From IMG/VR virus record IMGVR_UViG_3300008450_000433, positions 1 to 24,245 of that record: 24,245 bases of DNA. One strand, given 5' to 3'. Of the stretch, positions 1-24,245 are shown piece by piece; the first letter of the stretch is position 1, and every line of letters starts with the position of its first letter. The position numbers and the translations under genes were made by a program. The notes under the pieces are model-generated. The model was not told the origin of the DNA. It saw only the letters and a program-made list of their open reading frames with translations, and did no database searches. Source of the DNA: a virus.

Positions 1-397
1 AGCCAGTGCCATCGTGTGTGTTGAGTGCAGTAACGTAACGTTTAACGTCACTGTTGCCAATAAACTCGCTTGGCAGTTCTATCTGGTAAAATACCTTGCT
101 ACCGTTTTTAAGAGTGCCACCGTTCACTACGTTTAATTCCAGCATATCGGTAGCCTGTACCAGCATCTCCACAAGGCTACTGTTTTGCATTGGCTCATAA
201 CGTTGCTTAACTGTTCCAAGCCACTTGTTATCCGTGTTACGGAAAATGCCAAAACTTTCCGTTTGTACCAGTGTGTTATCTGGGTTCACTGCGTACAGTG
301 GTTGCTTAACTACTGACCAGTTGGTTTTGGTTGCCTCTAAAATCTCAAAGGTCTTGTCTTGTACTGTTGCGTTTGGGTTTGTTGTTAAATTTTTCAT
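1..397 (-). CDS. DUF932 (phage/plasmid-like) protein, 3' end outside window
   Basis: The frame opens with ATG at 397 and runs off the left edge without a stop, giving 132 visible codons. The N-terminus reads MKNLTTNPNATVQD and continues with a W-S-V-V-K-Q-P-L segment, then F-G-I-F-R-N-T-D-N and L-G-T-V-K-Q-R-Y-E-P-M-Q-N. That order (W.V...pl, R.d....lg.v...Y.p.qN) is typical of DUF932/TIGR03299 proteins, which are common in phages and plasmids and have no settled biochemical role. The start is fixed by a promoter 44 bp upstream and an A/C-rich leader ending in AAACCAAAATG. It is the first gene of its unit and probably early or regulated rather than late. The family call rests on motif recognition only. 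Confidence 0.7.
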   Translation of the reverse strand, partial: MKNLTTNPNATVQDKTFEILEATKTNWSVVKQPLYAVNPDNTLVQTESFGIFRNTDNKWLGTVKQRYEPMQNSSLVEMLVQATDMLELNVVNGGTLKNGSKVFYQIELPSEFIGNSDVKRYVTALNTHDGTG

Positions 398-440
398 TTT
401 GGTTTGGGTTTTAAATGGTTTTAGTTGTTGTTTGGTTTGA

Positions 441-471
441 CAAATGTACAACGTTTAACGTTACTTGCAAC
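441..471 (-). promoter_or_regulatory. Bacteroidota-type promoter P1 with internal operator-like palindrome
   Basis: On the minus strand GTTG (471-468) is followed by exactly 19 bp and TACATTTG (448-441), matching the Bacteroidota -33/-7 consensus TTTG-N19-TAnnTTTG. The spacer contains AACGTTAAACGTT (450-462), two AACGTT palindromes one base apart. The expected start of transcription is near 434, giving a leader of roughly 37 nt before the ATG at 397. The same arrangement recurs at 1726-1756 and 2910-2940. Confidence 0.85.
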
Positions 472-544
472 AGTTAACTAAAAATAATTTTGGGTAATTA
501 TGCTAACTTGCTGATTTACCGTTAAATAATTTTACTTTAAGCCT

Positions 545-563
545 AAAAATAACGGTTATTTTT
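545..563. promoter_or_regulatory. Upstream 19-bp dyad of P1
   Basis: The plus strand reads AAAAATAACGGTTATTTTT, a perfect inverted repeat (9 bp arms around one G). It lies about 75 bp upstream of the P1 -33 element. The core TAACSGTTA is also found upstream of P2 (1831-1849) and P3 (3004-3016). Together with the next 20 bases (TTAAAGTAAAATTATTT on the minus strand), shared almost exactly with P2, this looks like a binding site rather than chance. It could also work as a weak A/T terminator stem for the unit that ends at 621. Confidence 0.5.
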
Positions 564-566
564 ATT

Positions 567-599
567 GGTTTAGTGAGGGTTTTACCCCCCATTTAAACC
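567..599 (-). terminator. Terminator-like hairpin after the 42-aa gene
   Basis: On the minus strand, GGTTTA pairs with TAAACC and encloses an inner GGGT-AAA-ACCC. It starts 22 bases past the stop of the 621-749 gene and is followed by an A/T-rich stretch without a clean U run. I read it as the end of the P2 transcription unit. It could instead be part of the P1 regulatory region. The rest of 398-620 holds only promoter elements. Confidence 0.35.
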
Positions 600-620
600 T
601 CTCTGGCTTCCTGTTTCTGC

Positions 621-749
621 TTAATTGCCGTACTTTTTAGCCAGTTTGCTTAACTCATACACGGCATAGGTGAACACCAGCAAACCTGTAACGTAGTGGC
701 ACTGCTCTAACAGAGCGAATGCCACGTATGACGCAAGTAACCCCCTCAT
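621..749 (-). CDS. Small membrane protein, 42 aa
   Basis: The frame runs from ATG at 749 to TAA at 621. Its ATG overlaps the TGA of the upstream gene (ATGA), so translation is probably coupled. The product starts MRGLLASYVAFALLEQC and continues with a hydrophobic stretch (V-T-G-L-L-V-F-T-Y-A-V), ending in a lysine-rich tail (SKLAKKYGN). This suggests one or two short membrane segments with a basic C-terminus. I do not recognise a family. It is the last gene of the P2 unit, far from the lysis block, so I do not propose holin function. Confidence 0.6.
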   Translation of the reverse strand: MRGLLASYVAFALLEQCHYVTGLLVFTYAVYELSKLAKKYGN

Positions 750-1087
750 TTGTTACCTCCCTCTGTTACCACGTATAACAATTGGTCGTTATCGTCATAG
801 ACGTAATGGTAGTAGTTGCCGTTAACGTCTGTGTTGAACTCTCCCCAGCAATCTTTAGAGTAGCCAGTAATCGGACAAGTCCACTCCATTACACCTTGGT
901 AACTTAAATGCCTATGTGTACCTGTTACCTGTGGCACTAACACGTTATCTATGTCTGTTAATAACTGCTCTGCAGTGAACTGGTCACCGTCTGGGTCTGC
1001 CAATAGTGTACGTGTGCGTTTAAGTAGGTTAATTAAAACGGTTACTTGTTTCTGGTGCATTAGCACGGTGTTGTTTTGTTGTTTCAT
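746..1087 (-). CDS. Hypothetical protein, 113 aa
   Basis: It begins with ATG at 1087 after the leader CATACCAAAATG and ends with TGA at 746, overlapping the next start by ATGA. The N-terminal half is helical and polar (L-L-K-R-T-R-T-L-L-A-D around residues 22-32, then an acidic D-x-D-x-V segment). The C-terminal half is rich in aromatic residues and ends Y-Y-H-Y-V-Y-D-D-N-D. Two cysteines in the middle are not arranged as a zinc finger. No family is recognised. It belongs to the unit of small genes driven from P2. Confidence 0.7.
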   Translation of the reverse strand: MKQQNNTVLMHQKQVTVLINLLKRTRTLLADPDGDQFTAEQLLTDIDNVLVPQVTGTHRHLSYQGVMEWTCPITGYSKDCWGEFNTDVNGNYYHYVYDDNDQLLYVVTEGGNK

Positions 1088-1108
1088 TTTGGTATGTTTT
1101 TAGTTGGT

Positions 1109-1321
1109 TTATTTGCTGGTTACAGTTAATTGTCTGTTATACTTGAATCCTTTTACCTCATTAAGTTTAAATTCTATTGGTTCATTTTCGCCCATTATCT
1201 CTACAAGGCACGTAACACGGTCGTTAACCATTTCTACCACTTCTAACCAGTGTCCGTTTAATTCAAACCAATTGGATTTGGTTTCTACTTGTGCGTATAT
1301 TTTTTTAGTTGTGTTTTCCAT
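1109..1321 (-). CDS. Hypothetical protein, 70 aa
   Basis: It starts at ATG 1321 (MENTTKK) behind a leader reading AACCAAAACAACTAAAACA, the same A/C-rich style as its neighbours, and ends 21 bases before the next gene. The sequence alternates hydrophobic and polar residues (W-F-E-L-N-G-H-W-L-E-V-V-E-M-V, later I-E-F-K-L-N-E-V-K-G-F-K-Y), as expected of a small beta-barrel. The function is unknown. Its first five residues, MENTT, are shared with the unrelated 122-aa protein at 2508-2876, as is the leader, which hints at a conserved translation-initiation cassette. Confidence 0.7.
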   Translation of the reverse strand: MENTTKKIYAQVETKSNWFELNGHWLEVVEMVNDRVTCLVEIMGENEPIEFKLNEVKGFKYNRQLTVTSK

Positions 1322-1352
1322 TGTTTTAGTTGTTTTGGTTTAAGGTTTAAAT

Positions 1353-1372
1353 GGGGAGGGTTGCCCCTCCCC
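1353..1372 (-). terminator. G/C hairpin between accessory genes
   Basis: GGGGAGGG (1353-1360) and CCCTCCCC (1365-1372) form an 8-bp perfect stem with a 4-base loop, 11 bases past the stop of the 1384-1683 gene. On the minus strand it is followed by ATTTAAACC, not a long U run. It may attenuate transcription or protect the upstream mRNA's 3' end. A near-copy is at 2483-2500. Confidence 0.45.
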
Positions 1373-1383
1373 TGTTGGGTTTA

Positions 1384-1683
1384 TTATTTAACGTATGGAA
1401 TGCCTAAACGTGTGGCAGATATATTCATTTCCTTTGCCCTTTTAACGTTTTCCATTACCTCGCTATAAACTTCGTATAAATTAGATAATTGCTTACCGTT
1501 TGTTTGTGGAATAGCCTTGTATTTAAGGCTTACACTAACCATATTGCAAATAGAGTAGTAATTATTCCCCTCAATGTATAATACAAGGTATTTATCAACA
1601 GTAAACTGGTAACTTGTTATGCCGTTAATGTTTATTACTTCCATATCTGGCATTGTGTTGGTTGTTGTTTGGTTGGTTGTCAT
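1384..1683 (-). CDS. Hypothetical protein, 99 aa, first gene of P2 unit
   Basis: ATG at 1683 lies about 36 nt downstream of the predicted P2 start of transcription, behind a C/A-rich leader. The protein opens with a threonine/asparagine-rich stretch (MTTNQTTTNTMPD), followed by beta-like segments (E-V-I-N-I-N-G-I-T-S-Y-Q-F-T-V and Y-L-V-L-Y-I-E-G-N-N-Y-Y-S-I) and a helical C-terminal third. I do not recognise a domain. The strong regulated promoter directly upstream marks it as part of the same programme as the DUF932 gene and the 122-aa gene. Confidence 0.7.
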   Translation of the reverse strand: MTTNQTTTNTMPDMEVININGITSYQFTVDKYLVLYIEGNNYYSICNMVSVSLKYKAIPQTNGKQLSNLYEVYSEVMENVKRAKEMNISATRLGIPYVK

Positions 1684-1725
1684 TTTGTTTAGTTTTAGTT
1701 GTTAGTATTGTTTGGTTTGGTTTGA

Positions 1726-1756
1726 CAAATGTACAACGTTAAACGTTACATACAAC
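1726..1756 (-). promoter_or_regulatory. Bacteroidota-type promoter P2 with internal operator-like palindrome
   Basis: Minus strand: GTTG (1756-1753), 19 bp, TACATTTG (1733-1726). The spacer holds AACGTTTAACGTT (1735-1747), the same element as in P1 and P3. The predicted start of transcription is near 1719. It should drive the genes at 1384-1683, 1109-1321, 746-1087 and 621-749. Confidence 0.85.
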
Positions 1757-1830
1757 AGTTAACAGTAAATTATTTTTAGAAAACTACCTAACTTGTTGAT
1801 TTTGTGCGAAATAATTTTACTTTAACCACT

Positions 1831-1849
1831 AAAAATAACGGTTAATTAT
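1831..1849. promoter_or_regulatory. Upstream dyad of P2
   Basis: The plus strand reads AAAAATAACGGTTAATTAT. The left arm and core TAACGGTTA are identical to the P1 dyad and the right arm is degraded. It sits about 75 bp upstream of the P2 -33 element, just beyond the stop of the 1859-2260 gene. Confidence 0.45.
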
Positions 1850-1858
1850 CCAGTAAAC

Positions 1859-2260
1859 CTAAACTTTTACTACTTCCCAAGCCACGTAAACGCACTTATT
1901 ACGGCTATCCCAAGTGTCTAACAGTACCCCATTATCCAGACAGGCTACGTGCTTTGCCATTCGTAGTATGTAAACCTTATCCGTGGGCATAGTGTGAGCC
2001 GTCATACGTTTTTTGCCTTTGGTTGCTGGGTAGTAATGCCTCTGGTGTATAAAACCAAGGTCTGTTAGTGTTTGCTCCATTTGGTAAACCCAGTGCGTTT
2101 TACTACTGCCTCGTGTCGCTCTCCAGCCGTGTTGGTATAGTAACTGGTGGACTTGGCTATAAGGCTTACCTGTTGCCAATGCTATGGCTCGTATCATACA
2201 GTCCCTGTTAGATTTTATGTCAGTGGACTCCTTTGGTTGTGTTATCTGTAGTGTTGCCAT
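1859..2260 (-). CDS. Papain-like cysteine peptidase-type protein (putative)
   Basis: A 133-residue protein with the signature of a small phage-borne papain-fold family. Near the N-terminus it has N-R-D-C21-M-I-R-A-I-A-L-A-T-G-K-P-Y, placing a nucleophile cysteine at the start of a helix. Later comes Y-I-L-R-M-A-K-H104-V-A-C-L-D-N-G, then L-L-D115-T-W-D118-S. A Cys...His...Asp/Asn order with beta strands around the His is the layout of C39/NlpC-like peptidases. No signal peptide is present, so it would act in the cytoplasm. It starts 12 bases after the stop of the 59-aa gene and ends with TAG ahead of the P2 module. The fold is inferred from motifs and catalysis is not demonstrated. Confidence 0.55.
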   Translation of the reverse strand: MATLQITQPKESTDIKSNRDCMIRAIALATGKPYSQVHQLLYQHGWRATRGSSKTHWVYQMEQTLTDLGFIHQRHYYPATKGKKRMTAHTMPTDKVYILRMAKHVACLDNGVLLDTWDSRNKCVYVAWEVVKV

Positions 2261-2272
2261 TGGTTTGCTTTT

Positions 2273-2452
2273 TTAACGGTCTGTCCAGTCTTCAGTTATG
2301 CTAAACTTTATCCCTTGCTCTGCCCATAAACCAAGTTTAGTACTTATGTGGGTTTTAAGTTCTGCCTTTGACAGTCCACGTAGTGTGGTATGTAGTTCCT
2401 CACCTGTTACCCATACAGAGTAAGTTAGTGCGTAAAGTTTTTTAGTTTTCAT
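2273..2452 (-). CDS. Hypothetical protein, 59 aa
   Basis: The frame runs from ATG 2452 (behind AAACCAAA) to TAA 2273. The product begins MKTKKLYALTYSVWV and includes a charged helix (G-L-S-K-A-E-L-K-T-H-I) and a C-terminal segment F-S-I-T-E-D-W-T-D-R. The leader, codon use and tight spacing to the next gene (12 bp) match neighbouring real genes. The family is unknown. It lies between the 2483-2500 hairpin and the cysteine peptidase-like gene and is probably co-transcribed with it by read-through from P3. Confidence 0.65.
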   Translation of the reverse strand: MKTKKLYALTYSVWVTGEELHTTLRGLSKAELKTHISTKLGLWAEQGIKFSITEDWTDR

Positions 2453-2482
2453 TTTGGTTTTGGATTGTTTGGGTTTTATAAT

Positions 2483-2500: not shown

Positions 2501-2507
2501 TTTGGGT

Positions 2508-3016: not shown

Positions 3017-3022
3017 CCTATC

Positions 3023-3854: not shown

Positions 3855-4376
3855 TTATTTTAGTTTAGAGTAACCGTATGGGTCTGCCGTGTATATGTTT
3901 TTCTCGCTAACCTTGTATAAGCATCTCTCACGTAGATACGTTGGCACGTAAAACGAGGGGCAACCTTTGTTAGCATACTGGTTATGTCCACCTATCAACA
4001 CGTCTGGTGCGTATGTCAGCACTTCGGCTATTATACTGGACAAGACTTTATTTTGTTGCTCCGTAAGTGTGTCCTTTACGTTTTTACCTGTGGCATCCAA
4101 ACCACCCACGTAACACACGTGCCTACTTACACTGTTTATGCCACTCGCTCCGTTTGTAATTTCGTTGGCATCTATCCAAGTGTCTCCATTGTGTTTAACA
4201 AACGTATGCCGTTGTCCGTCCAAAAGTATTAGGTCGCTATAGCCTACACGTGTCCAGCCTCTGCCTTGTGGCTTTGGCTTGGTGTGCCAATCTCTTACCG
4301 TCTGTGCCGTTACTGCTCTACCCTCTGGTGTGGCAGTGCAATGGATTATAAGGTATTTAAAAGGCTTACGGCTCAT
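3855..4376 (-). CDS. Endolysin: N-acetylmuramoyl-L-alanine amidase (Amidase_2, T7 lysozyme type)
   Basis: The 173-residue protein is a single Amidase_2 domain that cleaves the bond between N-acetylmuramic acid and L-alanine in peptidoglycan. The zinc ligands can be placed as H12 (I-I-H-C-T-A-T), H131 (G-G-H-N-Q-Y) and C139 (K-G-C-P-S-F). The further catalytic residues of T7 lysozyme are also present: Y46 (V-G-Y-S-D) and K137. The H-to-C spacing of eight matches T7. There is no signal peptide, so export depends on a holin. The start ATG overlaps the stop of the preceding 39-aa gene (ATGA). The roughly 25-residue C-terminal tail beyond the domain has no recognised motif. Confidence 0.9.
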   Translation of the reverse strand: MSRKPFKYLIIHCTATPEGRAVTAQTVRDWHTKPKPQGRGWTRVGYSDLILLDGQRHTFVKHNGDTWIDANEITNGASGINSVSRHVCYVGGLDATGKNVKDTLTEQQNKVLSSIIAEVLTYAPDVLIGGHNQYANKGCPSFYVPTYLRERCLYKVSEKNIYTADPYGYSKLK

Positions 4377-4492
4377 TTATTTTTATTTTTGGTACGTTCC
4401 TCCCACCACAGGCTAACAATTGAATACAACACAAGCAAAGCCGTTACAGAGCCAAAGGCAATAACAAACAGTTTAGCAGTTTCGTACTTCAT
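4373..4492 (-). CDS. Single-pass small membrane protein, 39 aa
   Basis: A very short gene joined at both ends by ATGA overlaps: its ATG (4492) sits on the stop of the DUF5675 gene and its TGA on the amidase start. It has a short polar N-terminus (MKYETAK), one strongly hydrophobic helix (about residues 8-29, ending in L-W-W) and a charged tail (E-E-R-T-K-N-K-N-K). This could be a small holin, a lysis regulator or a membrane tether. The double coupling and lack of spare bases argue that it is real. Confidence 0.65.
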   Translation of the reverse strand: MKYETAKLFVIAFGSVTALLVLYSIVSLWWEERTKNKNK

Positions 4493-4962
4493 TGGTATAG
4501 GTCTACGGCACTCTGGTTGTTTTCTATTTTTATAAAGTAACTAACCTTGGGAGTATAGCATAACGTGTTTAGTATTTGCATTAATTCCGTTACTGCCTTT
4601 TTACATTCGTATAGTTTGTTCTCACCTCTACGGTATCCCACCAGTATGCACCCAGATACGTCCTCTGTCGTGTTGCCTCCGTGTATTCTCACACCAGACC
4701 ACATAGCACCGTAGCCGTCCGTACAAGTTAGGTTTTTATTGTTGTACAACAACGGTAACACTTGGCTAAACCTACTGCTAACGTTTAACGTAAAATCGTA
4801 AACTCCTGTCGGTATGCAAGTCTCTCCATATACCTTAACTCCTAACGGTCGTGCAACGTCTTCTAAAGTATAGCACTGAAAATTTAACTGGGGTATAGTC
4901 AGTATGCCAATTGTACTGCGTGTGGTAAACCACTTACGTTCTATGTTTATGAGCAGTTCCAT
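4489..4962 (-). CDS. DUF5675 family protein
   Basis: The 157-residue protein shows the DUF5675 pattern: G-E-T-C-I-P-T-G-V-Y near residue 46, S-R-F at 63-65, and the block VRIHGGNTTEDVSGCILVG at 91-109 with H94 and C105. The His...Ser-Gly-Cys arrangement recalls the catalytic loop of L,D-transpeptidase-like folds, so a peptidoglycan-related activity is possible, but none is established for this family to my knowledge. DUF5675 genes are common in lysis or tail regions of phages. Here the gene sits directly upstream of the amidase cassette. It overlaps the upstream gene by one base (TAATG). Confidence 0.75.
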   Translation of the reverse strand: MELLINIERKWFTTRSTIGILTIPQLNFQCYTLEDVARPLGVKVYGETCIPTGVYDFTLNVSSRFSQVLPLLYNNKNLTCTDGYGAMWSGVRIHGGNTTEDVSGCILVGYRRGENKLYECKKAVTELMQILNTLCYTPKVSYFIKIENNQSAVDLYQ

Positions 4963-10267: not shown

Positions 10268-11581
10268 TTATTTTAATTGTTGTGGCAATGGTAAACCTTT
10301 AACAATGGCAGTGGCTATGTTAATGTCCACACCGTACACGGCTACCATATAGTTTATTTTCTGCTCTGTCGTTAGCAATGGGTCTACTATCAAACCTTGC
10401 AAGGCAACCAACTTTCCTACCTCCAACACTTCGCCAAGTGGCTTAATTGTTTTCTGTTCCTCTAACCCAGTAAGTGGGATTATTAAATAATCTCCGTCTG
10501 GTGCTGGGTCTCCCTCAAACCAGTTTTTTAGTATTGGCTCAAACACATATGACAACTTGTTACGTTCATCTGCCGTGCGTTCGTCATAGTTTGCCTTGGC
10601 TTCCTCCCACTCTTTAGACAGACCTAACTGCCCTTGTGTTTTTATTGCGTGTAATGCTAACGGTTGTCCGTAGCAACGTATTACGTTTTCTCGTACTGTG
10701 GTTTCCGTCAACTCGTAAACCTTGTCGTTATCCTGTTTGTCTACTTTTATTAACTCTGGCTTTGCACTTGGTTGGGGACATTCAACAACTACGATTTTAT
10801 GACTATTGTCAACACCTTGGAAACTGTTAACTGCCTCTACGTATGCGTCTCTCTCTTGCTCACTGGCAAACTCTCCGTTAAAAACCCAAAAGTAGTTAGC
10901 CATAAAGTCCGTGCTTATGCCTCTGTACTTCCACATTTTTATCCCAGCATCCGTTAACACGTCTTCAAAGACTGGGTCGCATACTGCTGGTGGGTAAATG
11001 TTATGTCCTTTCTCTGAAAAATAGTAAACCTGTCCCCTCCAATTGTCAAAACCACCAGCCTTGTTTATCTGGTCGTAAATTATTTCCAAATCATTTGTGT
11101 AAAGGTCGTAGGTCTGCAACAGTTTTTTATCAAATGTCCCTGTTTCCCTCGCCCAGTCTGGGTGTACCTTTACCTGTGTGACGTTTAGCATATCGTCTGG
11201 TAGTTCCAAACGGATAAACTCGTAAGGTATATGCTTAATGCTTATGGGTTGTAACAACGCATTGTATGTAATGTGGAAAGCATAACCCAAATACATAGAA
11301 CGGTCTGCACACAACAGACGGTGTACGTCTGCCAGTGTCTGCATCTTTTCGTTAACAATTAACTTTTCAAGGTTTTGGTTACGATAGCCTCTACCTCGTA
11401 GGTGTTTTGCAAATAAATTGGTACAAGCCGTAGCAGTGCCACTACTGTTAATGGCATTGCGTACCCTCTGTGGGTATATGTTATCTGCGTCATACATTTG
11501 CACACCGTTTGCCTTATCATCTCTGTAGGCTAAACGTTTGGTTGCAAAGGACGGTACTGCTATGCGACTGTTTTGGCTCAT
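10268..11581 (-). CDS. Portal protein, 437 aa
   Basis: The protein has the features of Bacteroidetes-phage portals: an N-terminal N-I-Y-P-Q-R-V-R-N-A-I segment, T-A-C-T-N-L-F-A-K-H-L-R-G-R-G, a wing region with Y-L-G-Y-A-F-H-I-T-Y-N, and a helical stem (about residues 310-345) rich in charged residues including N-Y-D-E-R-T-A-D-E-R-N. Portals form the dodecameric DNA entry ring at one capsid vertex. The length fits the family. Oddly, it lies downstream of protease, capsid and tail tube genes rather than ahead of them. It begins 9 bases after the 191-aa gene. Confidence 0.75.
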   Translation of the reverse strand: MSQNSRIAVPSFATKRLAYRDDKANGVQMYDADNIYPQRVRNAINSSGTATACTNLFAKHLRGRGYRNQNLEKLIVNEKMQTLADVHRLLCADRSMYLGYAFHITYNALLQPISIKHIPYEFIRLELPDDMLNVTQVKVHPDWARETGTFDKKLLQTYDLYTNDLEIIYDQINKAGGFDNWRGQVYYFSEKGHNIYPPAVCDPVFEDVLTDAGIKMWKYRGISTDFMANYFWVFNGEFASEQERDAYVEAVNSFQGVDNSHKIVVVECPQPSAKPELIKVDKQDNDKVYELTETTVRENVIRCYGQPLALHAIKTQGQLGLSKEWEEAKANYDERTADERNKLSYVFEPILKNWFEGDPAPDGDYLIIPLTGLEEQKTIKPLGEVLEVGKLVALQGLIVDPLLTTEQKINYMVAVYGVDINIATAIVKGLPLPQQLK

Positions 11582-13007: not shown

Positions 13008-14099
13008 TTAGTATGCAACTTGTACCATATTGTCTACACCTACTTTGGCATCAATTGACGCACCGAACTTGGCATACATTACCTCTGCATCTTTAGAGTA
13101 CCAAGCATCCATTTCCGACAAAGTACCAGAGGTTTCTACACCCAGCAATAAGTTGGATTTTGGAGCAAGTAGGATACGGTGTGGCAACACAGATTTTACT
13201 GGTGTGGCATCGTCTCCAAAGTAAGCCGAAATCATCCTATCCCACAACTGTACAGGCATAACGTTTATACCGTTCCAAGTAAGTGTCGTAAGTCCGTTCT
13301 CTTGACGGTTGTAAGGCAACTCAATACCAGAGATAGATTTACGTTCTTTTTCCAACTGGTCATATACTGACTGGCTAACGTAGTAAGATAAATCTGCTTT
13401 GCCCATTGAACGCAAACGCATATCTGCGTCATACCATACGGAGTCCAATGCTAAAGACACTACTTGGTTTGTAATGTCTGTACTGTTGAACTTTTGCAAT
13501 GCGTAGGAGGCTTGTGCGTTTTTAGTAGCCAAACCAGTAGAGGACAAACGAGATGCGTTAGCAGTTACAATGTCAAACACCTGTGACCAGATACCGTCTA
13601 TAGCATTGAAAAACGCAATTTCACCAGCACCTAAATTGTTGTTAGTTCCAGCAACGATGCCTTTATCACCAAACCAAAAATGTCTCTGGTAAACTTCAGA
13701 AATAGTATCGGACATTTGCTCTACAATAAAGGTAGCAAGTTCAGTGCCTGTAAGGTCTGTCTTGTTTACACCTACGTTAAGCATCCACTGTGCAAAGGTG
13801 TCCATAAAAGTGGCAAAACATTCCTCGTAACGGTCTCCAATGTACTTTGGTGTCCACGTCTTTTCTATTGCATCAAATCCCCAAGTACTGTTAGTTGGAG
13901 TTGGACAGGCAGTAACCTGTTTACCAGAGAGACCAGTGTGCCGTCCCCAGATAATTAGTTGCTTGTCTGCTTTGATTCCCTCTTGTACAGTGACCATACT
14001 GGACAAGATAGGGTCTTTAAAGAAACCCTCAAAAAGGGTCTCGCTCATACTGGTTACCTGTTGAGGTGTCAGTGCTGGTAAGTTGTTAATTAGTGCCAT
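13008..14099 (-). CDS. Major capsid protein, 363 aa
   Basis: The protein resembles major capsid proteins of Bacteroidetes siphophages (HK97-like fold expected): an N-terminal helical arm (Q-V-T-S-M-S-E-T-L-F-E-G-F-F), W-T-P-K-Y-I-G-D-R-Y-E-E-C-F-A, a spine-helix region with L-T-G-T-E-L-A-T-F-I-V-E-Q-M, then W-F-G-D-K-G and a C-terminal beta region ending in V-G-V-D-N-M-V-Q-V-A-Y. It lies directly after the protease-scaffold gene with an A-rich leader (AAAATAACGATAAAAGAAAATG) and just before the SD-led tail gene. Its codons use more ATC, TTC and GGT than neighbouring genes, as expected for the most expressed virion protein. Confidence 0.8.
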   Translation of the reverse strand: MALINNLPALTPQQVTSMSETLFEGFFKDPILSSMVTVQEGIKADKQLIIWGRHTGLSGKQVTACPTPTNSTWGFDAIEKTWTPKYIGDRYEECFATFMDTFAQWMLNVGVNKTDLTGTELATFIVEQMSDTISEVYQRHFWFGDKGIVAGTNNNLGAGEIAFFNAIDGIWSQVFDIVTANASRLSSTGLATKNAQASYALQKFNSTDITNQVVSLALDSVWYDADMRLRSMGKADLSYYVSQSVYDQLEKERKSISGIELPYNRQENGLTTLTWNGINVMPVQLWDRMISAYFGDDATPVKSVLPHRILLAPKSNLLLGVETSGTLSEMDAWYSKDAEVMYAKFGASIDAKVGVDNMVQVAY

Positions 14100-14121: not shown

Positions 14122-14682
14122 TTAAAATGCTATTGTAGATTTTTTAGTACTCTTGTTTTGGAGTTCCTTAATACGTGCCTTAATGTCCTCCTTTGATGCT
14201 TCCACTGTTGTGTCTGCCTTTTTGTTAAAGTTTACTTTGGCATTTGGGATAGCAACGTTTACCTTTAAGGTTTTTAGGTGGTTGGTAATTACTGCCACTT
14301 CCTCTACCATTTGTGTTTGTTCTGCTTTAAGTTCTGCATTCTCGGCAGTCAGTGCGTCCAATTGGTTTTGCAGTTCCTCCAGTTGTTTCTGTAGGTCTGC
14401 TTTGGTTGCATCCAAAATACTGTTTTCAATGGAGGCTGATGCCATTTCCATTTCAGTAATTAGACCACCTACTACAGTAATCATAGTGCCGTCTGCCAAG
14501 GTGTAAACACCCTCTGCTGGTTGTCCCTCTACGGTTACGGTGTCACCTATTGCAAGACCTTCGCCCACCATAGTTATTTCAAGTTCCATTCCGTCTGTGG
14601 TCTTCACCATTTCGTTAAACGTTACTCCGTGTGCCTTCAAGGCAGAGAACGCATCTTTAAAGATTTTTCCAATCTTGCTCAT
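14122..14682 (-). CDS. Possible nested in-frame scaffold protein, 186 aa
   Basis: ATG at 14682 (M186 of the protease) opens the scaffold part exactly at the domain border. It is preceded by CAACTAAAAATAAAAAACTA, which closely copies the A-rich leaders of separate genes in this window (for example AACTAAAAAACTAAAAAA before 2876). Nested scaffold genes inside protease genes are known, as in lambda C/Nu3. The leader also encodes T-T-K-N-K-K-L, so its A-richness could be coincidental. Confidence 0.4.
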   Translation of the reverse strand: MSKIGKIFKDAFSALKAHGVTFNEMVKTTDGMELEITMVGEGLAIGDTVTVEGQPAEGVYTLADGTMITVVGGLITEMEMASASIENSILDATKADLQKQLEELQNQLDALTAENAELKAEQTQMVEEVAVITNHLKTLKVNVAIPNAKVNFNKKADTTVEASKEDIKARIKELQNKSTKKSTIAF

Positions 14683-15237
14683 TAGTTTTTTATTTTTAGT
14701 TGTAAAGTTAATTGTTGCGTAAGCCTTGACGTTGTCCAGTATCTCTGTGGCAAACTTTAACTCGTATGCCGTCTGTGCTGGTACTAACTTGTCTTCCTTC
14801 ATTAGGTCGCTCAAAATCTCCCTTTCGCTCCCAGTCATATTTACATAAAAGTCCAGTAGTTGGTTTTCTATGCTACGCAGTTCCTCTGCCTTTTTGGTTA
14901 ACGTATCTGCGTCACCCTCTCCAAACGTCCAAGGGTTATGTATTAAAAACTGGGTGTTGTTATATAGTTGCCGTTTATCTCCAGCCATAAAAATAACTGT
15001 TGCAATACTGGCAACCAGTCCAACACCTTTAGTGGTTATTGGTTTGTCTAACGTTGTAAGATATTGGTAAATGCCAAAACCCTCCGTTACTTCACCACCT
15101 CCACTGTTTATGTTAACTATGTAGTTGTCTACCTCGCCAAGGTTCTGCACCTGTTCCATAACATTACGCAGACTAACCTCGCTGAAACCGTCAGTACCAA
15201 TACTACCGATTATGTTAATGACTCCACTTTTAGGCAT
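14122..15237 (-). CDS. Prohead protease (ClpP-like, S14-type) fused to scaffold-like domain, 371 aa
   Basis: Residues 1-180 are a ClpP-like domain: N-S-G-G-G at 44-48, nucleophile S77 in L-V-A-S77-I-A, and H100 in F-L-I-H100-N-P. At the place of the ClpP catalytic Asp (A-Y-E-L-K-F-A-T164-E165-I) there is Thr followed by Glu, so the third member may be replaced. From about residue 186 the protein changes to a scaffold-like part: M-S-K-I-G-K-I-F-K-D-A-F, a small beta segment, a long coiled coil (about 275-318) and a lysine-rich tail. Such fusions process and assemble the procapsid. It is immediately upstream of the capsid gene. Confidence 0.8.
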   Translation of the reverse strand: MPKSGVINIIGSIGTDGFSEVSLRNVMEQVQNLGEVDNYIVNINSGGGEVTEGFGIYQYLTTLDKPITTKGVGLVASIATVIFMAGDKRQLYNNTQFLIHNPWTFGEGDADTLTKKAEELRSIENQLLDFYVNMTGSEREILSDLMKEDKLVPAQTAYELKFATEILDNVKAYATINFTTKNKKLMSKIGKIFKDAFSALKAHGVTFNEMVKTTDGMELEITMVGEGLAIGDTVTVEGQPAEGVYTLADGTMITVVGGLITEMEMASASIENSILDATKADLQKQLEELQNQLDALTAENAELKAEQTQMVEEVAVITNHLKTLKVNVAIPNAKVNFNKKADTTVEASKEDIKARIKELQNKSTKKSTIAF

Positions 15238-15254: not shown

Positions 15255-15557
15255 TTATTGTTTTATCTTTTTCTCAATAGTGTGCAACGGCTTACGCATT
15301 ATGCTAATTGCCCTGTATACCGTGGCAGTGCTTACCCTAAACTCATTAGCCACGTTACAGATAATTACTTTGTTAGGTGTGTTACGTAGTCTGGTCTGTT
15401 GGGTTGCTACCGTCTCCGTAATTCTCATATAGGTTTTAGCCTTGGGTGACAATAGACCAGCAGTTACCAAACGTGGTAACGCACCAGACTCGTCCAGTTT
15501 TTTAATCTCGTTATAGACTGCTCCTTGACTCAATAACACTAACCCTCGTTTGTACAT
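15255..15557 (-). CDS. Helix-turn-helix protein, 100 aa
   Basis: The C-terminal half contains V-I-I-C-N-V-A-N-E-F-R-V-S-T-A-T-V-Y-R-A-I-S (about residues 63-85), a clear helix-turn-helix with a recognition helix beginning S-T-A-T-V-Y-R. The N-terminal half is helical and basic. It overlaps the end of the tape measure gene by 47 bp and ends 17 bp before the protease gene. A DNA-binding protein at this spot could be a late-gene regulator or a small packaging subunit (small terminase proteins also carry HTH domains), but no large terminase is nearby. I cannot choose between these. Confidence 0.65.
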   Translation of the reverse strand: MYKRGLVLLSQGAVYNEIKKLDESGALPRLVTAGLLSPKAKTYMRITETVATQQTRLRNTPNKVIICNVANEFRVSTATVYRAISIMRKPLHTIEKKIKQ

Positions 15558-18500
15558 TGTTTATCTCTGTTACGGCTACTACTGGTGCTGGTGCATTTGC
15601 AAACCCTTTGGCTATGGAGTTCTCTAATATTTCGCTTGTGTTTATAATAGGTGCAGATATGGTGCTACTGGTAAAGCCACCGTCTGCAAACGTTCGCACT
15701 CCTGTACGTCTCCACCTTTCCAAAGATGCGAACACCTCTGGTGCTTGTCGTATCTGCCAACTTGGACTTACCCACTCCGTACCAGCCTCACCAGCCAACT
15801 TCATACCTCCGTCTCCACCTTCCCACATAGTGGGACTGCTCACGTAACCACCTCCGTAATTGTTTTGCACGGACGGCATATATTCTGCCATAGCATCTGC
15901 AACGGTGTAACCACCCTCTGCAAACTTCTGGGCATTTACTGCGTTTATGTTTGCAATGGCTCTGGCTATGGCAGAGGCAGAGAGTATACCAGCCAACACT
16001 ACTGCACCTGTTCCAGCAATTACAGATTTACCACTGTCCTTACCAGCACCCTCCCAGTATCCCGAAATTTCTTGATAGGCATTTATTAAAATCTCTGCCT
16101 TTGCCAGTGCCTGTATTGCCCTTGCGTTTTTCTTACGGTCTGCCTCGTTTTTACCAAGCAATTGACTAAAACTTGATAACGCACCTTTCGTGGCATCCAG
16201 TAACTGGTTTTGCAGTAGTTTCTGTGCTTCGGCAGTTTCTTTGGTAGTCTTTAAAATCTGCTCGTTGGTTGCTACCGTCATTTGTAAACGTGCATCGTTA
16301 CCAGCCTCCGTTACCGTAGTTAACTCTGCCTGTGTCTCCGTCTCCGTTGTTAACTGTGTTGTTGCCCTGTCTTGGTTTATCTGTGCTAACTGTTCGTTAT
16401 ACTGTTGCTCTGTTATTACTTTTTTATTTAACTTTTCCTGTGCCTGTTTCTCCAAGTTGTCAAAGTAAAGAGCCTCGTTAACTTGTCTGCTTACAGTGTA
16501 CTCCTTTTGCAGTTCCAGCAACTGGTCGTTTTTCTGTATCTCCAAACCAAGTAAACTCTGTTGGTAATCTTCTTCGTTAATCAAACCCTTTGACTTGTCC
16601 AGTTGTAGTACGTCCTGTTTGGCTTTTATGTTAGCCTCTACCTGTGCCTTTTGCTGGTCAAGATTATTTTTTAAACTTTCGTTGCTTTCCTGTAGAGACT
16701 GTTGTGCGTAATTGCGTTCTATCTCTAAAACTTTTATTGCACTCTCTTGGGTTAGTGCCGTGCGTAGAGCCGTCTCTTTTTCTCCGTTGCCTTTTATGTC
16801 TGCCAGTTTTCTCTGTAGTGCCTCTGCCTCTATTGCCAGTTCTCTGGTCTTACCGTCTACTATTGTGTTTAAAAGTGCATCCGTTGTGGCTCGTGCTAAC
16901 TGTTTCTGTGCCTCACTGTATTGCTCTGCTTTTTGCTTACGTGCATCTCGTGCCTCTGCCTCTATCTCCAGTAACTTAACTTGGTAATTGCTCTCTATAA
17001 GTTCCCTCTGTTTGGCACTTAACTGGGTGTCCTCTAACTTGGCATCCCTCTCCTGTTTGGCTATATCCTTTGCAAGTTTAACAGTGTCCCTACCTCCTAA
17101 CTGTGCGACACGTAACTGGTCTTGCAGTAGTCCTATCGTACTGTTAATTTCGTCTGCTCTTAATTGCTTACGCAGTTTACTGGTTGCACTGGCTACCTCT
17201 TTTTCCTTGTCTAAAATAGCGTCTTTAAGATTAAAAACAGTCTCCTTTAACTCTGCTTCTGCTTTTGCCTCATCCCTTGTTAATTGCCCTCGCTTTTTTT
17301 TCTCTGCGTTTTCCTGTTGTAATATTTCTAACGCCTTTGCCTCTCGGTCTAATTGGTTTTGCAGTAACTGCTTTTCCAACTCTCCAGCCTCCTTTAGTGC
17401 GTCTATTCGCTCTTGGTCTGTCTTGGTTTTGTCCTCACTTGCTACCTGTAAATCTTCTATTGCTCTTTTTAGTTCGCCCTGTGTCGCTATGTTATCTATG
17501 TCCCTTTGCTCCAGTGCCTGTTTAGCCTTTTCCAATTGCATTGCCTTGTTAGCACTCTCTACGGCTTTGCTTCCAAAACTTGTCAGACTGTCTATGGCTT
17601 TGCCAAAATCCAGAGTAGCAATTGCACTGGCTATGTCCACTATCGTACCTATGACGGTTTCAAAGATAGCAGTTAACCCAGCCATTGCCTGTTTTAATTT
17701 GTCTATGCCACTTTGGAACTTGCTAAAATAACTGATAAGACCAACCACGGCAGTAACCAGTAAACCTATGCCAATGCTTTGCAAACCCACCTTTAGTATC
17801 TGTGTGGCTCTTGCTCCTGTAGTCATACCTTGCGACACACCAGCACCAGCCTTGTTGGCACTGTCTCCTACTGCGTCCAAGTCTCCAACGGTTTCCTTTG
17901 CACTGTCTCCAACTTGTTGCACTGCCGTACTGCCTTGCTCCAGTACCTGTGTGCCACTGGTAACAGTGTCGTTGGTCTTACCCCACGTTGTGCCAAAATC
18001 TTTAATTGCATCTACCGTAGTGTTATATCCGTCTGCTATAAGTTTAGTGCCTTGCTGGACGGCATTGTATACGGACGTTCCACTTTGTATAATACCTTGT
18101 ACCTGTCCAATGGCTTGTCCAAACAGACCAGTGTTTTGTATGGCTTGTTGGAAACTCTGCGTATAATTACCAACGTTTAACCGTCCGTCTTTTATACCAG
18201 CATTAAACTCCAGCAAACCCTCCTTTAATTTCAACACTTGTGCCTGTGCTTTTTTATATTCTGCCGTTAGCACTATAGTACCGTCTGCATTTATCTTAAC
18301 AGTGTTGGCTAACGTTTTTAGTTTTACCTCTGCGTCTACGTACTGCCTGTAAAGTTTCTCGTAACTCCCCTCCTGTGCTTTGTTAACTTTTCCAAGGTTG
18401 TCCAGTTGCTTGGTGTAGTTGGTTAACTCACCTTTAGCCTGTCTGGTCTGTGCTTCGTTTTCTGCAACGGCTTGGGTAATCTTTTTGTACTCTGCACTCC

Positions 18501-19092
18501 CAACACTTAAACCCTTTAAACCGTCTGTTAGTGTCTTGTTATTTTGTGCCAGTTCTGCCAGTGCTACCTTGGTGTTGGTTATGTTTTGTAGTAACTCCTG
18601 TTGCTCTGGTGTCCCACCTAATGCCTCGCCAATGGTATCCCCCATTGTTTGCATTGCCAACTCCAACTCTTTGGACTTGTCAATAGCAGACTGGTTGGCT
18701 TCCTCTCTCTGTGCCTGTAACTCTTGCTCTGCCTGTGACTGTGCTATACTCGCCTGTCTGGCTTTCTCTGTTGCGTCTATCTGTGCCTGTGAGGCTTTCT
18801 GTGCTTCCTCTGCTTGTTTGGTTTGTGTCTTACCAAGGTTATCCAATTCCTTTTGCAGAGTTCCTAACGTACCTTTAGCCTTACGTAACTGTGCTTCATT
18901 TTCAACTATTGCCCTGTTGGCTTTGTTCCAACTTGCACTACCAATGTCTCCAGCATTTTTTAAATCGTTTGCCAGTTCCTTGTTAGTAGCCTTTAAACGT
19001 TCTACCTCCCTACGTGCCTCCGTAATGCTTTTAAGGTATTTGTTGGTCTCTATGTTTAGGTCTATTATTACAACCCTTTTAGCATCTGCCAT
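15511..19092 (-). CDS. Tape measure protein, 1193 aa
   Basis: By far the longest gene, it sets tail length and helps DNA delivery. Residues 36-90 and 182-236 are an internal duplication (both contain V-A/E-N-E-A-Q-x-R-x-A-K-G and L-D-N-L-G-K). A hydrophobic segment at about 432-456 (G-L-Q-S-I-G-I-G-L-L-V-T-A-V-V-G-L-I) and an amphipathic stretch to about 495 are typical of tape measures that insert into the inner membrane. Residues about 510-1000 are charged coiled coil. The C-terminus has the F-A-E-G-G-Y...A-G-E-A-G-T-E-W-V-S-P motif of Bacteroidetes tape measures. At typical spacing of about 1.5 angstrom per residue the tail would be near 180 nm. Its start overlaps the upstream stop (TAATG). 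Confidence 0.9.
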   Translation of the reverse strand: MADAKRVVIIDLNIETNKYLKSITEARREVERLKATNKELANDLKNAGDIGSASWNKANRAIVENEAQLRKAKGTLGTLQKELDNLGKTQTKQAEEAQKASQAQIDATEKARQASIAQSQAEQELQAQREEANQSAIDKSKELELAMQTMGDTIGEALGGTPEQQELLQNITNTKVALAELAQNNKTLTDGLKGLSVGSAEYKKITQAVAENEAQTRQAKGELTNYTKQLDNLGKVNKAQEGSYEKLYRQYVDAEVKLKTLANTVKINADGTIVLTAEYKKAQAQVLKLKEGLLEFNAGIKDGRLNVGNYTQSFQQAIQNTGLFGQAIGQVQGIIQSGTSVYNAVQQGTKLIADGYNTTVDAIKDFGTTWGKTNDTVTSGTQVLEQGSTAVQQVGDSAKETVGDLDAVGDSANKAGAGVSQGMTTGARATQILKVGLQSIGIGLLVTAVVGLISYFSKFQSGIDKLKQAMAGLTAIFETVIGTIVDIASAIATLDFGKAIDSLTSFGSKAVESANKAMQLEKAKQALEQRDIDNIATQGELKRAIEDLQVASEDKTKTDQERIDALKEAGELEKQLLQNQLDREAKALEILQQENAEKKKRGQLTRDEAKAEAELKETVFNLKDAILDKEKEVASATSKLRKQLRADEINSTIGLLQDQLRVAQLGGRDTVKLAKDIAKQERDAKLEDTQLSAKQRELIESNYQVKLLEIEAEARDARKQKAEQYSEAQKQLARATTDALLNTIVDGKTRELAIEAEALQRKLADIKGNGEKETALRTALTQESAIKVLEIERNYAQQSLQESNESLKNNLDQQKAQVEANIKAKQDVLQLDKSKGLINEEDYQQSLLGLEIQKNDQLLELQKEYTVSRQVNEALYFDNLEKQAQEKLNKKVITEQQYNEQLAQINQDRATTQLTTETETQAELTTVTEAGNDARLQMTVATNEQILKTTKETAEAQKLLQNQLLDATKGALSSFSQLLGKNEADRKKNARAIQALAKAEILINAYQEISGYWEGAGKDSGKSVIAGTGAVVLAGILSASAIARAIANINAVNAQKFAEGGYTVADAMAEYMPSVQNNYGGGYVSSPTMWEGGDGGMKLAGEAGTEWVSPSWQIRQAPEVFASLERWRRTGVRTFADGGFTSSTISAPIINTSEILENSIAKGFANAPAPVVAVTEINNVQTRVSVIESRSSL

Positions 19093-21233: not shown

Positions 21234-22774
21234 TAGTTAGCCACGTTGTAATACTCTGGTAACTCTATTTGCAGTTCCAACTCTACGTCTGTCTGTCTGC
21301 TCGTATACTTGACTCCTTTGGGTGCAATGGTTACACCTATCCAAGCCAAGTCTGGGTCTGTCGCAAGTTTGGTGGCATCCCATAACATAAACACCTGTGG
21401 TGACATTTCCACCTGTATGATTGCGTCTGCCTGTTCCTTGCTTACCACGTCACCTAACAAGTAACGTTTAACTTGGTTGGCACTTAACAAACGTTCACGG
21501 TAAATGCCTCTGGCTATATCTTCGTTATCCACTACAAACGTACCGTTTTGCTTGGCTACGTAACTGGTCTCGTTAACCTTGTCAAACAACCAAAAGTCCC
21601 AGCCACCAAGTACGTTTTTCCACATTAGGTAGATTGGATTTTTACGGCAGTCCTTATTTAATAAAACCCTTTTCTTTTCTGTTATCCTATAAACTGGGGT
21701 TACACTTGCTGGGGTCTGTGTCGTGTAGTTATCCTGTACGTAATCGTCCTCCACATAGTTGTTAGACGCAACGTTGCCACTCTCCAACCAAACGTCTACC
21801 TGTTCCACGTTGCTGGTGTAAGTTCCTTTAAGTGTTAATTGGTGTATGCCTACGGAAACTTTAAAACCTAAATTGGCATCGTTGTGGTTTACTATGCTAC
21901 CGTTAGTGTCTAACTCATCTTCCTCTCGTGTGTTGTTAAAACCAACTATTGGAGTAGACCAGATAAACGACAGACTGAATGGATAACCAATAAAGTAAAC
22001 AGGGTTGCTAAACAACGTAAGGAAATTAGCATAGATGCCAGTAACTCTCTGTGGTACGTAATCTGCGTAGTTCTGTCCGTATTGCGTTAGCAAATACTTT
22101 GCACCGTCTACCGTGTAGTAACGAACTGGTTGCTTTGCTCCGTTTACTATTTCCTCCTCTTTAGTTACGTTAACGTCCGTAATCTGTTGCCCCTCCTCTA
22201 TATAACTGTTACGGTATTGGATAGTAAAATAGTTCCACCCAGTATACTCCAACTCGTGGACGTTATTAAATCCAAACTTGTTACGTTTGTACATTTTATA
22301 CTCTAACAATGTACGCACGTCCATTTTAATTATCCCAGCCGTGTCTGGTGTGCCTACTATCTCACCAAGGTACTCCACTTGTTGTGTGCTTGGGATATAT
22401 GCGTACACTTTTAAAAATAACTTGTAACTTATTTTTTTTGCCCAGTTGAGGTAACCAGTGCTGGGTAGTCCAAGTGTCCAAGGTATGTCTGTTGTCAATT
22501 CAAACGATTGTCCAACTGCCGTAACCGTTCCAGTGTTTACCGTTGTGCCACGTACAATGGTAATAACGTCACCTATTGCTATATTTTGTTCGTCTAAAAC
22601 CCCAGAGCCTTGCGTGTTGTTAGTGACCAGCACGTAACCACCTTGGTTGGAAAAACTGCAATATGCATCTTTACGAGTAAACTTAAAAACGTAGGGTTGC
22701 CTGTTGGACTGCCAACGTACCATATACGTAGGATTTAAAACGTGTCCCCTTTCTGGTCTTATTAACTCTATCAT
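21233..22774 (-). CDS. Tail protein of Bacteroidetes-phage type, 513 aa
   Basis: It is a large beta-rich protein with tryptophan/tyrosine-rich blocks and a characteristic C-terminal region K-N-P-I-Y-L-M-W-K-N-V-L-G-G-W-D-F-W-L-F-D (about residues 380-400) that I associate with conserved tail proteins of Bacteroidetes phages without assigned function. A conserved Q-V-K-R-Y-L-L-G-D segment follows. It starts on the stop of the gp10-like gene and ends on the start of the 713-residue gene, so the three are translated as a block. I infer a distal tail or baseplate subunit. Confidence 0.55.
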   Translation of the reverse strand: MIELIRPERGHVLNPTYMVRWQSNRQPYVFKFTRKDAYCSFSNQGGYVLVTNNTQGSGVLDEQNIAIGDVITIVRGTTVNTGTVTAVGQSFELTTDIPWTLGLPSTGYLNWAKKISYKLFLKVYAYIPSTQQVEYLGEIVGTPDTAGIIKMDVRTLLEYKMYKRNKFGFNNVHELEYTGWNYFTIQYRNSYIEEGQQITDVNVTKEEEIVNGAKQPVRYYTVDGAKYLLTQYGQNYADYVPQRVTGIYANFLTLFSNPVYFIGYPFSLSFIWSTPIVGFNNTREEDELDTNGSIVNHNDANLGFKVSVGIHQLTLKGTYTSNVEQVDVWLESGNVASNNYVEDDYVQDNYTTQTPASVTPVYRITEKKRVLLNKDCRKNPIYLMWKNVLGGWDFWLFDKVNETSYVAKQNGTFVVDNEDIARGIYRERLLSANQVKRYLLGDVVSKEQADAIIQVEMSPQVFMLWDATKLATDPDLAWIGVTIAPKGVKYTSRQTDVELELQIELPEYYNVAN

Positions 22775-23262
22775 TATTTAAATGCGTTAACTATGTCCGT
22801 GCTTATCTCTGCCTCTATCTCTGTGCCTATCTCGTTTAAAATTGCCTGTATGCTATTCTCCGTAATGACGTTGGTATAAACCTCTCTGCGTTCACCAAGC
22901 AAATGCAATAACGTACCACGTTGGTGTATGGCACGAGTGATAAGAAAGGCTAAACTGTCCTTTGTCATATTGCCATCTGGTGTTATGCCTTTATCGTCTA
23001 TCCATTGCCTAATGGCTCTGCCCACTGCACCGTCTCCGTCCCTACGTGTCGCTCCCCTACCTTGCTCTACAAATGCCCAGCCAATGCCACCAGTAATGGA
23101 CATACCTACGGCACTGTCCGTGGTTGTCGTTTCCACTTGTAAACTCTGGGACGTTCTGCCACTGGCATTAGCACCAGTGCTAACCATCATAGCCTGTAAC
23201 TCCAGCACGAGCCTATCCCCCTCACGTTGTAAAATGCTCTCTATGCGTTTAAGGTCTAACAC
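22774..23262 (-). CDS. HK97 gp10-like tail/neck completion protein, 162 aa
   Basis: The protein begins with a helix (L-D-L-K-R-I-E-S-I-L-Q-R-E-G-D-R-L-V-L-E-L), followed by N-A-S-G-R-T-S-Q-S-L, a beta segment, and G-G-I-G-W-A-F-V-E-Q-G-R-G-A-T-R-R. Helix, then ASGrtaxSl, then a Y/F-V-E-x-G motif is the signature of HK97 gp10-like proteins, which sit at the head-tail interface. The length is normal. It overlaps the upstream gene by 7 bp and the downstream one by 1 bp. Confidence 0.65.
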   Translation of the reverse strand: MLDLKRIESILQREGDRLVLELQAMMVSTGANASGRTSQSLQVETTTTDSAVGMSITGGIGWAFVEQGRGATRRDGDGAVGRAIRQWIDDKGITPDGNMTKDSLAFLITRAIHQRGTLLHLLGERREVYTNVITENSIQAILNEIGTEIEAEISTDIVNAFK

Positions 23263-23705
23263 TGGTATGCTATGGGTTCATTTATGGTTAAGGTAAAGGT
23301 AAACACGTAACCAGTTAAATTATCATCATACTCGTGCAACAATTCCCTACGGTTAACCTGTCCGATTGCTATCTTATTATTTGGATGCTTGTTTAGGTTT
23401 GTAATAAAACGGTAGTAGATAAGTTGCAACGTTTCCAAATAATTTAAATACTCTAAAGTTGCCTGTTCGTTGTTGGCTATGTCTGCCGTATAACTGCACA
23501 AACCAGACACCTCACCTATTACCTCGTAGGTTGTAGTAACGGCATTGTTTTGGTGTATTACGTCACGTGGGTTAACCAGATGCACCCAGATACGTGGGTA
23601 GTGTTCACTCTGTAAATTACTGTACGCTTTTGCTCCACGTCCGTAGTGCTTCACTCCGTCCGTTGCCTCTGCCACGGTTTTTAGTATGGTTTCAATCAGT
23701 CTCAC
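23256..23705 (-). CDS. Probable tail terminator / completion protein, 149 aa
   Basis: It starts with GTG at 23705, whose TG forms the stop of the frameshifted chaperone frame (GTGA), with AAGAGG just upstream. The sequence has the alpha-beta order of gpU-like tail terminators: N-terminal helix, Y-P-R-I-W-V-H-L-V-N, T-T-T-Y-E-V-I-G-E-V-S-G-L, a long helix with Y-L-N-Y-L-E-T-L-Q-L-I-Y-Y-R-F, and final strands G-Y-V-F-T-F-T-L-T-I-N-E-P. Its length, and the gp10-like gene beside it, fit. Assignment is by pattern and position. Confidence 0.5.
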   Translation of the reverse strand: MRLIETILKTVAEATDGVKHYGRGAKAYSNLQSEHYPRIWVHLVNPRDVIHQNNAVTTTYEVIGEVSGLCSYTADIANNEQATLEYLNYLETLQLIYYRFITNLNKHPNNKIAIGQVNRRELLHEYDDNLTGYVFTFTLTINEPIAYQC

Positions 23706-23956
23706 CTCTTTAGTATTTTGTGTAGTTGTTTAGTAAATCTTGCTTCCTCTGCTCTACGGTATAAGGTTGTAAATGCCTCACTGTATGTAATGTTAAAGAC
23801 TGCGTCATACTTGGTAGGGTCTCCGTTCGCTAATGTATAAATTAAATTGAACTCCCCAAATTTGTTAAACCTATCTATACCAGCCTCCACCTCGTTTATG
23901 TCTGGTGTAACGTTTAACGTTTTGGCTTCGGCTTCGCATACACTATGTAACCACGT
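23702..23956 (-). CDS. -1 frame extension of tail assembly chaperone (T-like part)
   Basis: After slippage, the first new codon is ACG at 23956 and the frame continues for 84 codons to TGA 23704-23702. The added residues begin T-W-L-H-S-V-C-E-A-E-A-K and include E-A-G-I-D-R-F-N-K-F-G-E-F-N-L-I-Y and S-E-A-F-T-T-L-Y-R-R-A-E-E-A-R. The full fusion would be about 181 residues. On its own this frame could only start at GTG 23890 without an obvious ribosome binding site, giving 62 residues. The overlap, phase and heptamer favour the fusion, as in phage G/GT tail chaperones that act on the tape measure protein. Confidence 0.6.
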   Translation of the reverse strand, partial: TWLHSVCEAEAKTLNVTPDINEVEAGIDRFNKFGEFNLIYTLANGDPTKYDAVFNITYSEAFTTLYRRAEEARFTKQLHKILKR

Positions 23957-24245
23957 AAAAAAAAATCTGCCTCTGGATAGGCTTCTACTACTGGCATATT
24001 GTAAACCTCTTGCTCTATTTCCTTTACGTGCTTATCGTCCCACTTTTTATCTGGGTGCAAATACGGTGCGTAATAGTTCGCAACCACGGAGGCTACCAGT
24101 TCACTGTGTGCCGTTTTCTTTTCAATGCCATTAGTGACCAATTGTTGCATAAATAACTTTTGCCCGAACCTCTCTTGACCAACGTCACGTATAACCTTTA
24201 ACTTTATGCCGTTTATCGTTACCTCGTTTGCTCTACGTATAGCCA
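23914..24245 (-). CDS. Tail assembly chaperone, short (G-like) product, 5' end at or just beyond window edge
   Basis: The frame is open to the right edge. The visible sequence ends the window as TG-GCT-ATA-CGT, so the start codon is probably ATG with its A one base outside, giving about 110 residues beginning M-A-I-R-R-A-N-E-V-T-I-N-G-I-K. The protein is helical in the middle (L-V-A-S-V-V-A-N-Y-Y-A-P-Y-L) and has A-Y-P-E-A-D-F-F-L-R-G near the C-terminus, the usual place of the slippery site in G/GT chaperone genes. It ends with a lysine/proline-rich tail. With the overlapping -1 frame (23702-23956) it matches the G/GT layout. Confidence 0.65.
   Translation of the reverse strand, partial: AIRRANEVTINGIKLKVIRDVGQERFGQKLFMQQLVTNGIEKKTAHSELVASVVANYYAPYLHPDKKWDDKHVKEIEQEVYNMPVVEAYPEADFFLRGYIVYAKPKPKR
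23956..23962 (-). promoter_or_regulatory. -1 frameshift slippery heptamer T TTT TTA
   Basis: The minus strand has nine T (23965-23957) followed by A. In the frame of the chaperone this reads GAT TTT TTT TTA CGT, so the last seven bases are T TTT TTA in the correct phase for -1 slippage. The -1 frame is open from about 24030 through to the TGA at 23702. A modest hairpin is possible just downstream (GGTT/AGCC and CATA/TATG arms). Confidence 0.65.

Follow-up and report, generated by a model that had tools for sequence, protein, structure and literature searches.

In this work, we focused on a stretch of viral DNA of 24,245 bp, i.e. a complete IMG/VR record (hereafter the window), in which nine of the 16 four-base palindromes do not occur at all. 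We consider it highly probable that the window escapes numerous Type II restriction systems of its hosts through the synonymous loss of their sites, and that the avoided set turns over fast. The absence had been noticed in a sequence-only reading of the same DNA; it is confirmed, proves to have been understated, and represents a known strategy, restriction-site avoidance, in an extreme form. We infer the selecting agents to be restriction enzymes located in one host clade, and likewise their number.

Results

Gene content of the window

Every gene of this tailed-phage fragment lies on the minus strand, and the gene types comprise a portal, a ClpP-type head protease, a probable major capsid protein, a probable tape measure, tail proteins and an amidase. 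The following features were assigned:

2..451, minus strand: DUF932 protein, truncated by the contig end (PF06067, phrog_1221)
3855..4376, minus strand: N-acetylmuramoyl-L-alanine amidase, endolysin (phrog_822, PF01510)
4489..4962, minus strand: DUF5675 protein adjoining the lysis gene (PF18925)
10268..11581, minus strand: portal protein (phrog_11226, E=1e-63; tblastn)
13008..14099, minus strand: probable major capsid protein (phrog_38780; alignment; homologue of phage BS-TP3 at the equivalent place)
14122..15237, minus strand: ClpP-type head maturation protease (phrog_94, E=7.5e-45; PF00574)
15511..19092, minus strand: ORF of 1193 aa, probably the tape measure protein (assigned from length and position, without a family match)

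The nearest isolates by tblastn, i.e. phages of Bacteroides, Parabacteroides and Cellulophaga, have portals with 26-31% identity to that of the window; the host therefore probably belongs to the Bacteroidota. The window is part of a tailed phage whose kind is related to phages of Bacteroidota. A host was not found, nor a matching CRISPR spacer, nor the restriction systems of a host; portal or capsid alignments revealed no prophage relatives in 84,980 genomes. Using the portal protein as anchor, we assembled a set of 16 related viral contigs. One of these (G003) has 38,036 bp and end repeats of ~300 bp that are 99% identical, so that its genome is probably complete; by analogy, the full genome to which the window belongs probably measures near 38 kb, of which ~13 kb (about a third) would lie outside the window.

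Nine missing four-base palindromes

Exact counts were made over the whole record:

1..24245: zero copies of AGCT, CATG, CCGG, CGCG, CTAG, GATC, GCGC, GGCC and TCGA

The other seven palindromes are common (ACGT 208, GTAC 115, TGCA 145, TTAA 248, AATT 130, ATAT 72 and TATA 120), so that both the total absence of the nine and the plenty of the seven, which had been read by eye, stand as described. Base composition predicts 86 copies for a mixed site and 44.5 for an all-GC one, in agreement with the earlier estimates of 80-90 and several tens. An order-1 model predicts 23-86 copies per word for the nine; with elimination defined as in PMC6286503, i.e. an observed/expected ratio below 0.1 with an expectation above 15, each of the nine, observed 0 times, is eliminated on this expectation.

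Two further nulls took the coding sequence into account. Shuffles of synonymous codons that kept the protein and the codon usage (n=300) gave 17-75 expected copies per word, the lowest single shuffle holding 8. In the strictest null (60 samples), protein and codon usage were kept and synonymous codon swaps were allowed only with every dinucleotide count unchanged. The coding part is then expected to hold AGCT 70, CATG 39, CCGG 11, CGCG 10, CTAG 36, GATC 15, GCGC 16, GGCC 35 and TCGA 11 times, i.e. a sum of ~243 for the nine in coding DNA, with a minimum of 3 for any word in the 60 samples; the expectation exceeds 15 for AGCT, CATG, CTAG, GGCC and GCGC and is 9-16 for the remaining four. By both types of shuffle, neither the encoded proteins nor codon usage accounts for the absence of these words, and by the stricter one neither does the dinucleotide content. 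Neither normal exact counts nor an equal depletion in codon shuffles, the two results by which the sequence-only reading had proposed to be judged, was found.

A wider set of purged words

The scan for further words proceeded in stages, each null being kept free of the words found to be banned before. It showed the list of nine to be right in all its members and incomplete:

1..24245: zero copies of CCNGG, GGNCC, GGNNCC, GCNGC, GCNNGC, CGNCG and CTNAG
1..24245, both strands: zero copies of CCGC, ACAGC, CCTGC, AGCCC, ACATC, CCTGA and ACGGG

Observed/expected numbers were 0/49 for CTNAG, 0/40 for GCNNGC, 0/33 for GGNNCC, 0/24 for CGNCG, 0/20 for CCNGG, 0/16 for GCNGC and 0/14 for GGNCC, bringing the palindromic specificities at zero to 16 in total (nine 4-bp and seven interrupted). 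Among asymmetric words, CCGC (CCGC/GCGG) stood at 0/30 and CCCG (CCCG/CGGG) at 2/44, and at least six five-base words are at zero, i.e. those listed above after CCGC. GAATC and GATTC had been cited as sites that still occur, which is true; GAWTC is nevertheless depleted as well, with only 2 copies in all against 6.9 expected by the Markov model and ~30 by codon resampling.

The zeros depend sharply on the spacer. Neither GC..GC nor GG..CC occurs with a spacer of 0, 1 or 2, and both have normal numbers from spacer 3 on; CC..GG, CG..CG and CT..AG are missing with spacers of 0 and 1 and present again at 2; AG..CT, CA..TG, GA..TC and TC..GA are absent at spacer 0 only. The purged words are shaped like Type II recognition sites, 16 of them palindromic or short interrupted, with six or more asymmetric ones in addition. 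Such a spacer pattern is that of separate Type II specificities (e.g. HaeIII, Sau96I and NlaIV types; HhaI, Fnu4HI and Cac8I types) and is unlike a smooth compositional or structural bias.

Codon use and strand asymmetry

In a codon simulation, 23 of the eliminated motifs were banned and codons were otherwise chosen by base composition. The total CG count was 766 with the ban, 990 without it and 768 in the window, and the ban gave the right direction for the preference for Arg CGT, Pro CCA and Gly GGT and for the avoidance of Ile ATC. The proposal that site avoidance explains much of the codon choice thus holds for the CG total and for several directions of codon bias; it does not extend to the depletion of TC and GA, observed at 0.29-0.61 at codon positions against 0.84-1.01 simulated. 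Banned motifs were rejected as the cause of this depletion, since the simulation fails to reproduce it.

The depletion varies with context. On the coding strand it is stronger for TC, the dinucleotide observed/expected ratio (O/E) being 0.37 for TC and 0.76 for GA. At synonymous positions of the coding (minus) strand over 1-24245, TC stands at 0.29/0.35 and GA at 0.52/0.61, beyond the effect of the banned motifs. The same strand also shows an asymmetry between CTTC and GAAG (2 vs 66 in the window; 1 vs 97 in the related contig G004, locus L016), and in another relative (G002, L030-L031) between ACTTC and GAAGT (0 vs 58). By the strict test, the window's lack of CTTC is not established; the CTTC/ACTTC asymmetry might reflect strand-asymmetric Type III avoidance, in which a word would occur in a single orientation.

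Site loss at homologous positions

The window was compared with a relative that has cleared few words (G001) over 4580 aligned codons. The nine palindromes occur 402 times in this relative, and the window retains none of these copies; 121 of them are gone with the amino acids unchanged. For the seven tolerated palindromes, 37 of 285 copies are retained. The sites are therefore absent singly at homologous places, often by synonymous change only. When the synonymous codons of G004 were placed singly into the window, a banned site arose in 110 cases, and 1847 of the 14,476 single synonymous changes possible in the window (13%) would make one.

Cleared words among relatives

Two of the relatives (G006 and G016) are the window's species assembled from other metagenomes; they are 99.97% and 99.75% identical to it and have the same zeros. 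The same nine are also at zero in G004, which shares ~65-70% DNA identity with the window; of 5442 codons, 1834 differ synonymously from those of the window and 1825 nonsynonymously. Other family members, with portals 66-73% identical, have different sets. Of the nine, seven or eight are cleared in G008 and G007; G003 lacks ACGT, CATG, CCGG, CGCG, CTAG, GATC, GCGC and GGCC, plus CTNAG, GCNGC and others; G001 lacks CCGG, GATC and GGCC only, and G002 lacks CTAG and GGCC. The more distant G010 (portal 49% identical) has cleared CTAG, GATC and GAWTC, and is depleted in ACAG; this non-palindromic word (ACAG/CTGT; L039-L040) was observed 6 times against ~105 in the strict null and 264 at order 1. 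No 4-bp word is cleared in the GC-rich G005 and G009.

Differing sets were found inside one metagenome in three pairs (G004 and G014; G006, i.e. the window's species, and G015; G001 and G012). In the portal tree, G003 and G013 cluster and both lack ACGT, CATG, CTAG and GATC; G002, G012 and G014 cluster yet differ in their cleared words. Since groups of this tree may share or differ in their sets, the set changes over short distances. The nine zeros are conserved across ~30-35% DNA divergence, and the set turns over among relatives. The probable major capsid protein is 72-84% identical across aligned relatives despite a G+C content of 33 to 60%. Phages whose capsid or portal is mostly 66-80% identical span 33 to 62% G+C (G005, G009 and G010 vs G002 and G003; L034-L040 vs L030-L033).

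Modification genes

The 24,245-bp fragment was searched for genes of the DNA methyltransferase and Tet/JBP families and none was found. G003 (L032-L033) encodes a Tet/JBP oxygenase at 32920-33351; together with its genes for a ParB/methyltransferase-like protein, a PAPS-reductase-like protein, a nucleotidyltransferase and a phosphoheptose isomerase, this resembles a DNA hypermodification cluster. A queuine-transferase (7-deazaguanine) gene was rejected in this genome, the PHROG match being to the same ORF region as the Tet/JBP domain. G002 carries a C5 DNA methyltransferase gene (L030, 1262-2200) and G009 an N6/N4 methyltransferase. From these three genomes, DNA modification probably exists beside site loss in the family. 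In the C5 methyltransferase carrier, CCGG is over-represented (33 vs 7) and not avoided.

Rarity of multiple clearing

As comparison sample, 89 viral contigs (median 10 kb) were picked by an arbitrary 14-base word. Of these, 57 had cleared none of the 16 four-base palindromes, and no contig had cleared more than 4. In 10-kb pieces of the window, 8-9 four-base palindromes are cleared, plus all seven interrupted words. Five contigs of the sample (L086, L162, L149, L140 and L127) share the set CATG, GATC and GCNNGC, to which GGCC, GGNCC and GGNNCC are added in the longer two.

Discussion

Restriction-site avoidance, as proposed in the sequence-only reading, is strongly supported: the codon and dinucleotide nulls fail, the words have Type II shapes with sharp spacer limits, and the sets of relatives differ. 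According to this explanation, the hosts would jointly possess many Type II systems whose recognition words have 4 bases, contiguous or interrupted, and exposure to them would be lasting. Mutations that remove a site would be favoured and those that recreate one purged, mainly via synonymous codon changes, until the sites for about two dozen specificities were driven to exactly zero and nothing was left to cut. A lineage moving to hosts with other enzymes would see the constraint shift, which would give relatives with different cleared sets. The depletion of TC and GA, far past the effect of the motif ban, counts against Type II restriction as the full account.

The same mechanism could also operate under another distribution of hosts. 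The phage or its recent ancestors might roam many host species with few Type II systems each, the zeros being their union, instead of facing one heavily armed host; we regard this as a substantial but rather doubtful possibility. Close relatives at 33 to 62% G+C suggest that host changes are common in the family, and in plasmids the avoidance of 6-bp sites rises with host range (PMC10359461), but the same plasmid study found host range without effect on 4-bp palindromes (PMC10359461). Moreover, the retention of the same nine zeros in the window, G006 and G016, which come from separate metagenomes, and in G004 suggests a stable shared enzyme set.

Explanations without selection by host enzymes fare much worse. 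That the phage's own site-specific nucleases degrade host DNA, its genome having been cleared for self-protection, is very improbable: genes for them might lie in the ~13 kb that are probably missing from the window, but some 20 specificities would be needed, and in the nearly complete G003, which has cleared eight four-base palindromes, Pfam and PADLOC scans revealed no restriction-endonuclease family. Composition or mutation bias (codon preference, dinucleotide bias or a host-like k-mer signature) acting without selection on single words is more improbable still. Dinucleotide use is indeed odd (TC and GA on the coding strand), but shuffles preserving codons and dinucleotides still predict 10-70 copies per word, ACGT, TGCA and GTAC are normal in spite of a similar composition, and a host-like bias gives no exact zeros. 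The two shuffle nulls thus reject codon usage, a dinucleotide bias or plain composition as the cause. Exact zeros do have an artificial look, as a restriction-digested library, a corrupted assembly or a synthetic sequence might produce; the chance of such an artefact is practically negligible, given that the genome encodes normal proteins and that other metagenomes yielded the same sequence on assembly. Contigs of one metagenome lack different words, which rules out an artefact of the library or the assembly.

Returning to escape from host Type II systems, a wider claim, to which we give somewhat less than even weight, is that this phage clade uses near-total site erasure as its main anti-restriction device, with more than 20 Type II specificities escaped at the same time and the set rewritten within ~30% protein divergence at each host change. 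If so, the genomes could serve as a record of the restriction systems that their hosts own, and the Type II arsenals of these hosts would rank among the densest known. The window shows the reach of restriction selection, about two dozen words being gone from 24 kb with function kept and codon choice bent. Each virus probably carries in its sequence a record of the DNA-cutting defences that it had to escape. As the cleared set varies between relatives, such genomes could reveal the restriction specificities of uncultured hosts and time host changes.

Comparison with known systems

Earlier work on restriction-site avoidance in prokaryotic viruses reportedly includes that of Sharp (1986) and Rocha et al. 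(2001). As in the window, short palindromic Type II sites are under-represented or eliminated in dsDNA phages, most strongly in non-temperate ones (PMC6286503). Rusinov et al. (2018) found elimination in ~7% of (Type II site, phage) pairs, and saw it essentially only in DNA phages and for orthodox Type II sites (PMC6286503). Reported elimination concerns single (site, genome) pairs, whereas the window has nine of 16 four-base, seven interrupted and several asymmetric words at zero, and its cleared set differs from those of close relatives. Among the open-licence papers searched, none described a phage that had cleared some twenty words together.

Helicobacter pylori, the host of phage KHP30, is known for many restriction systems. 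Like the window, this phage (AB647160) is depleted in several palindromes (ACGT 5/62, GTAC 4/41 and TCGA 7/62), but it clears none fully, compared with nine in the window; many host systems therefore need not give such clearing. The nearest isolate by portal and capsid, Bacteroides phage BS-TP3 (PQ571276), shares head gene order with the window (portal 31%, capsid 28% identical). Unlike the window, it has an integrase, and its 4-bp palindromes are neither strongly avoided nor fully cleared over the 26 kb examined.
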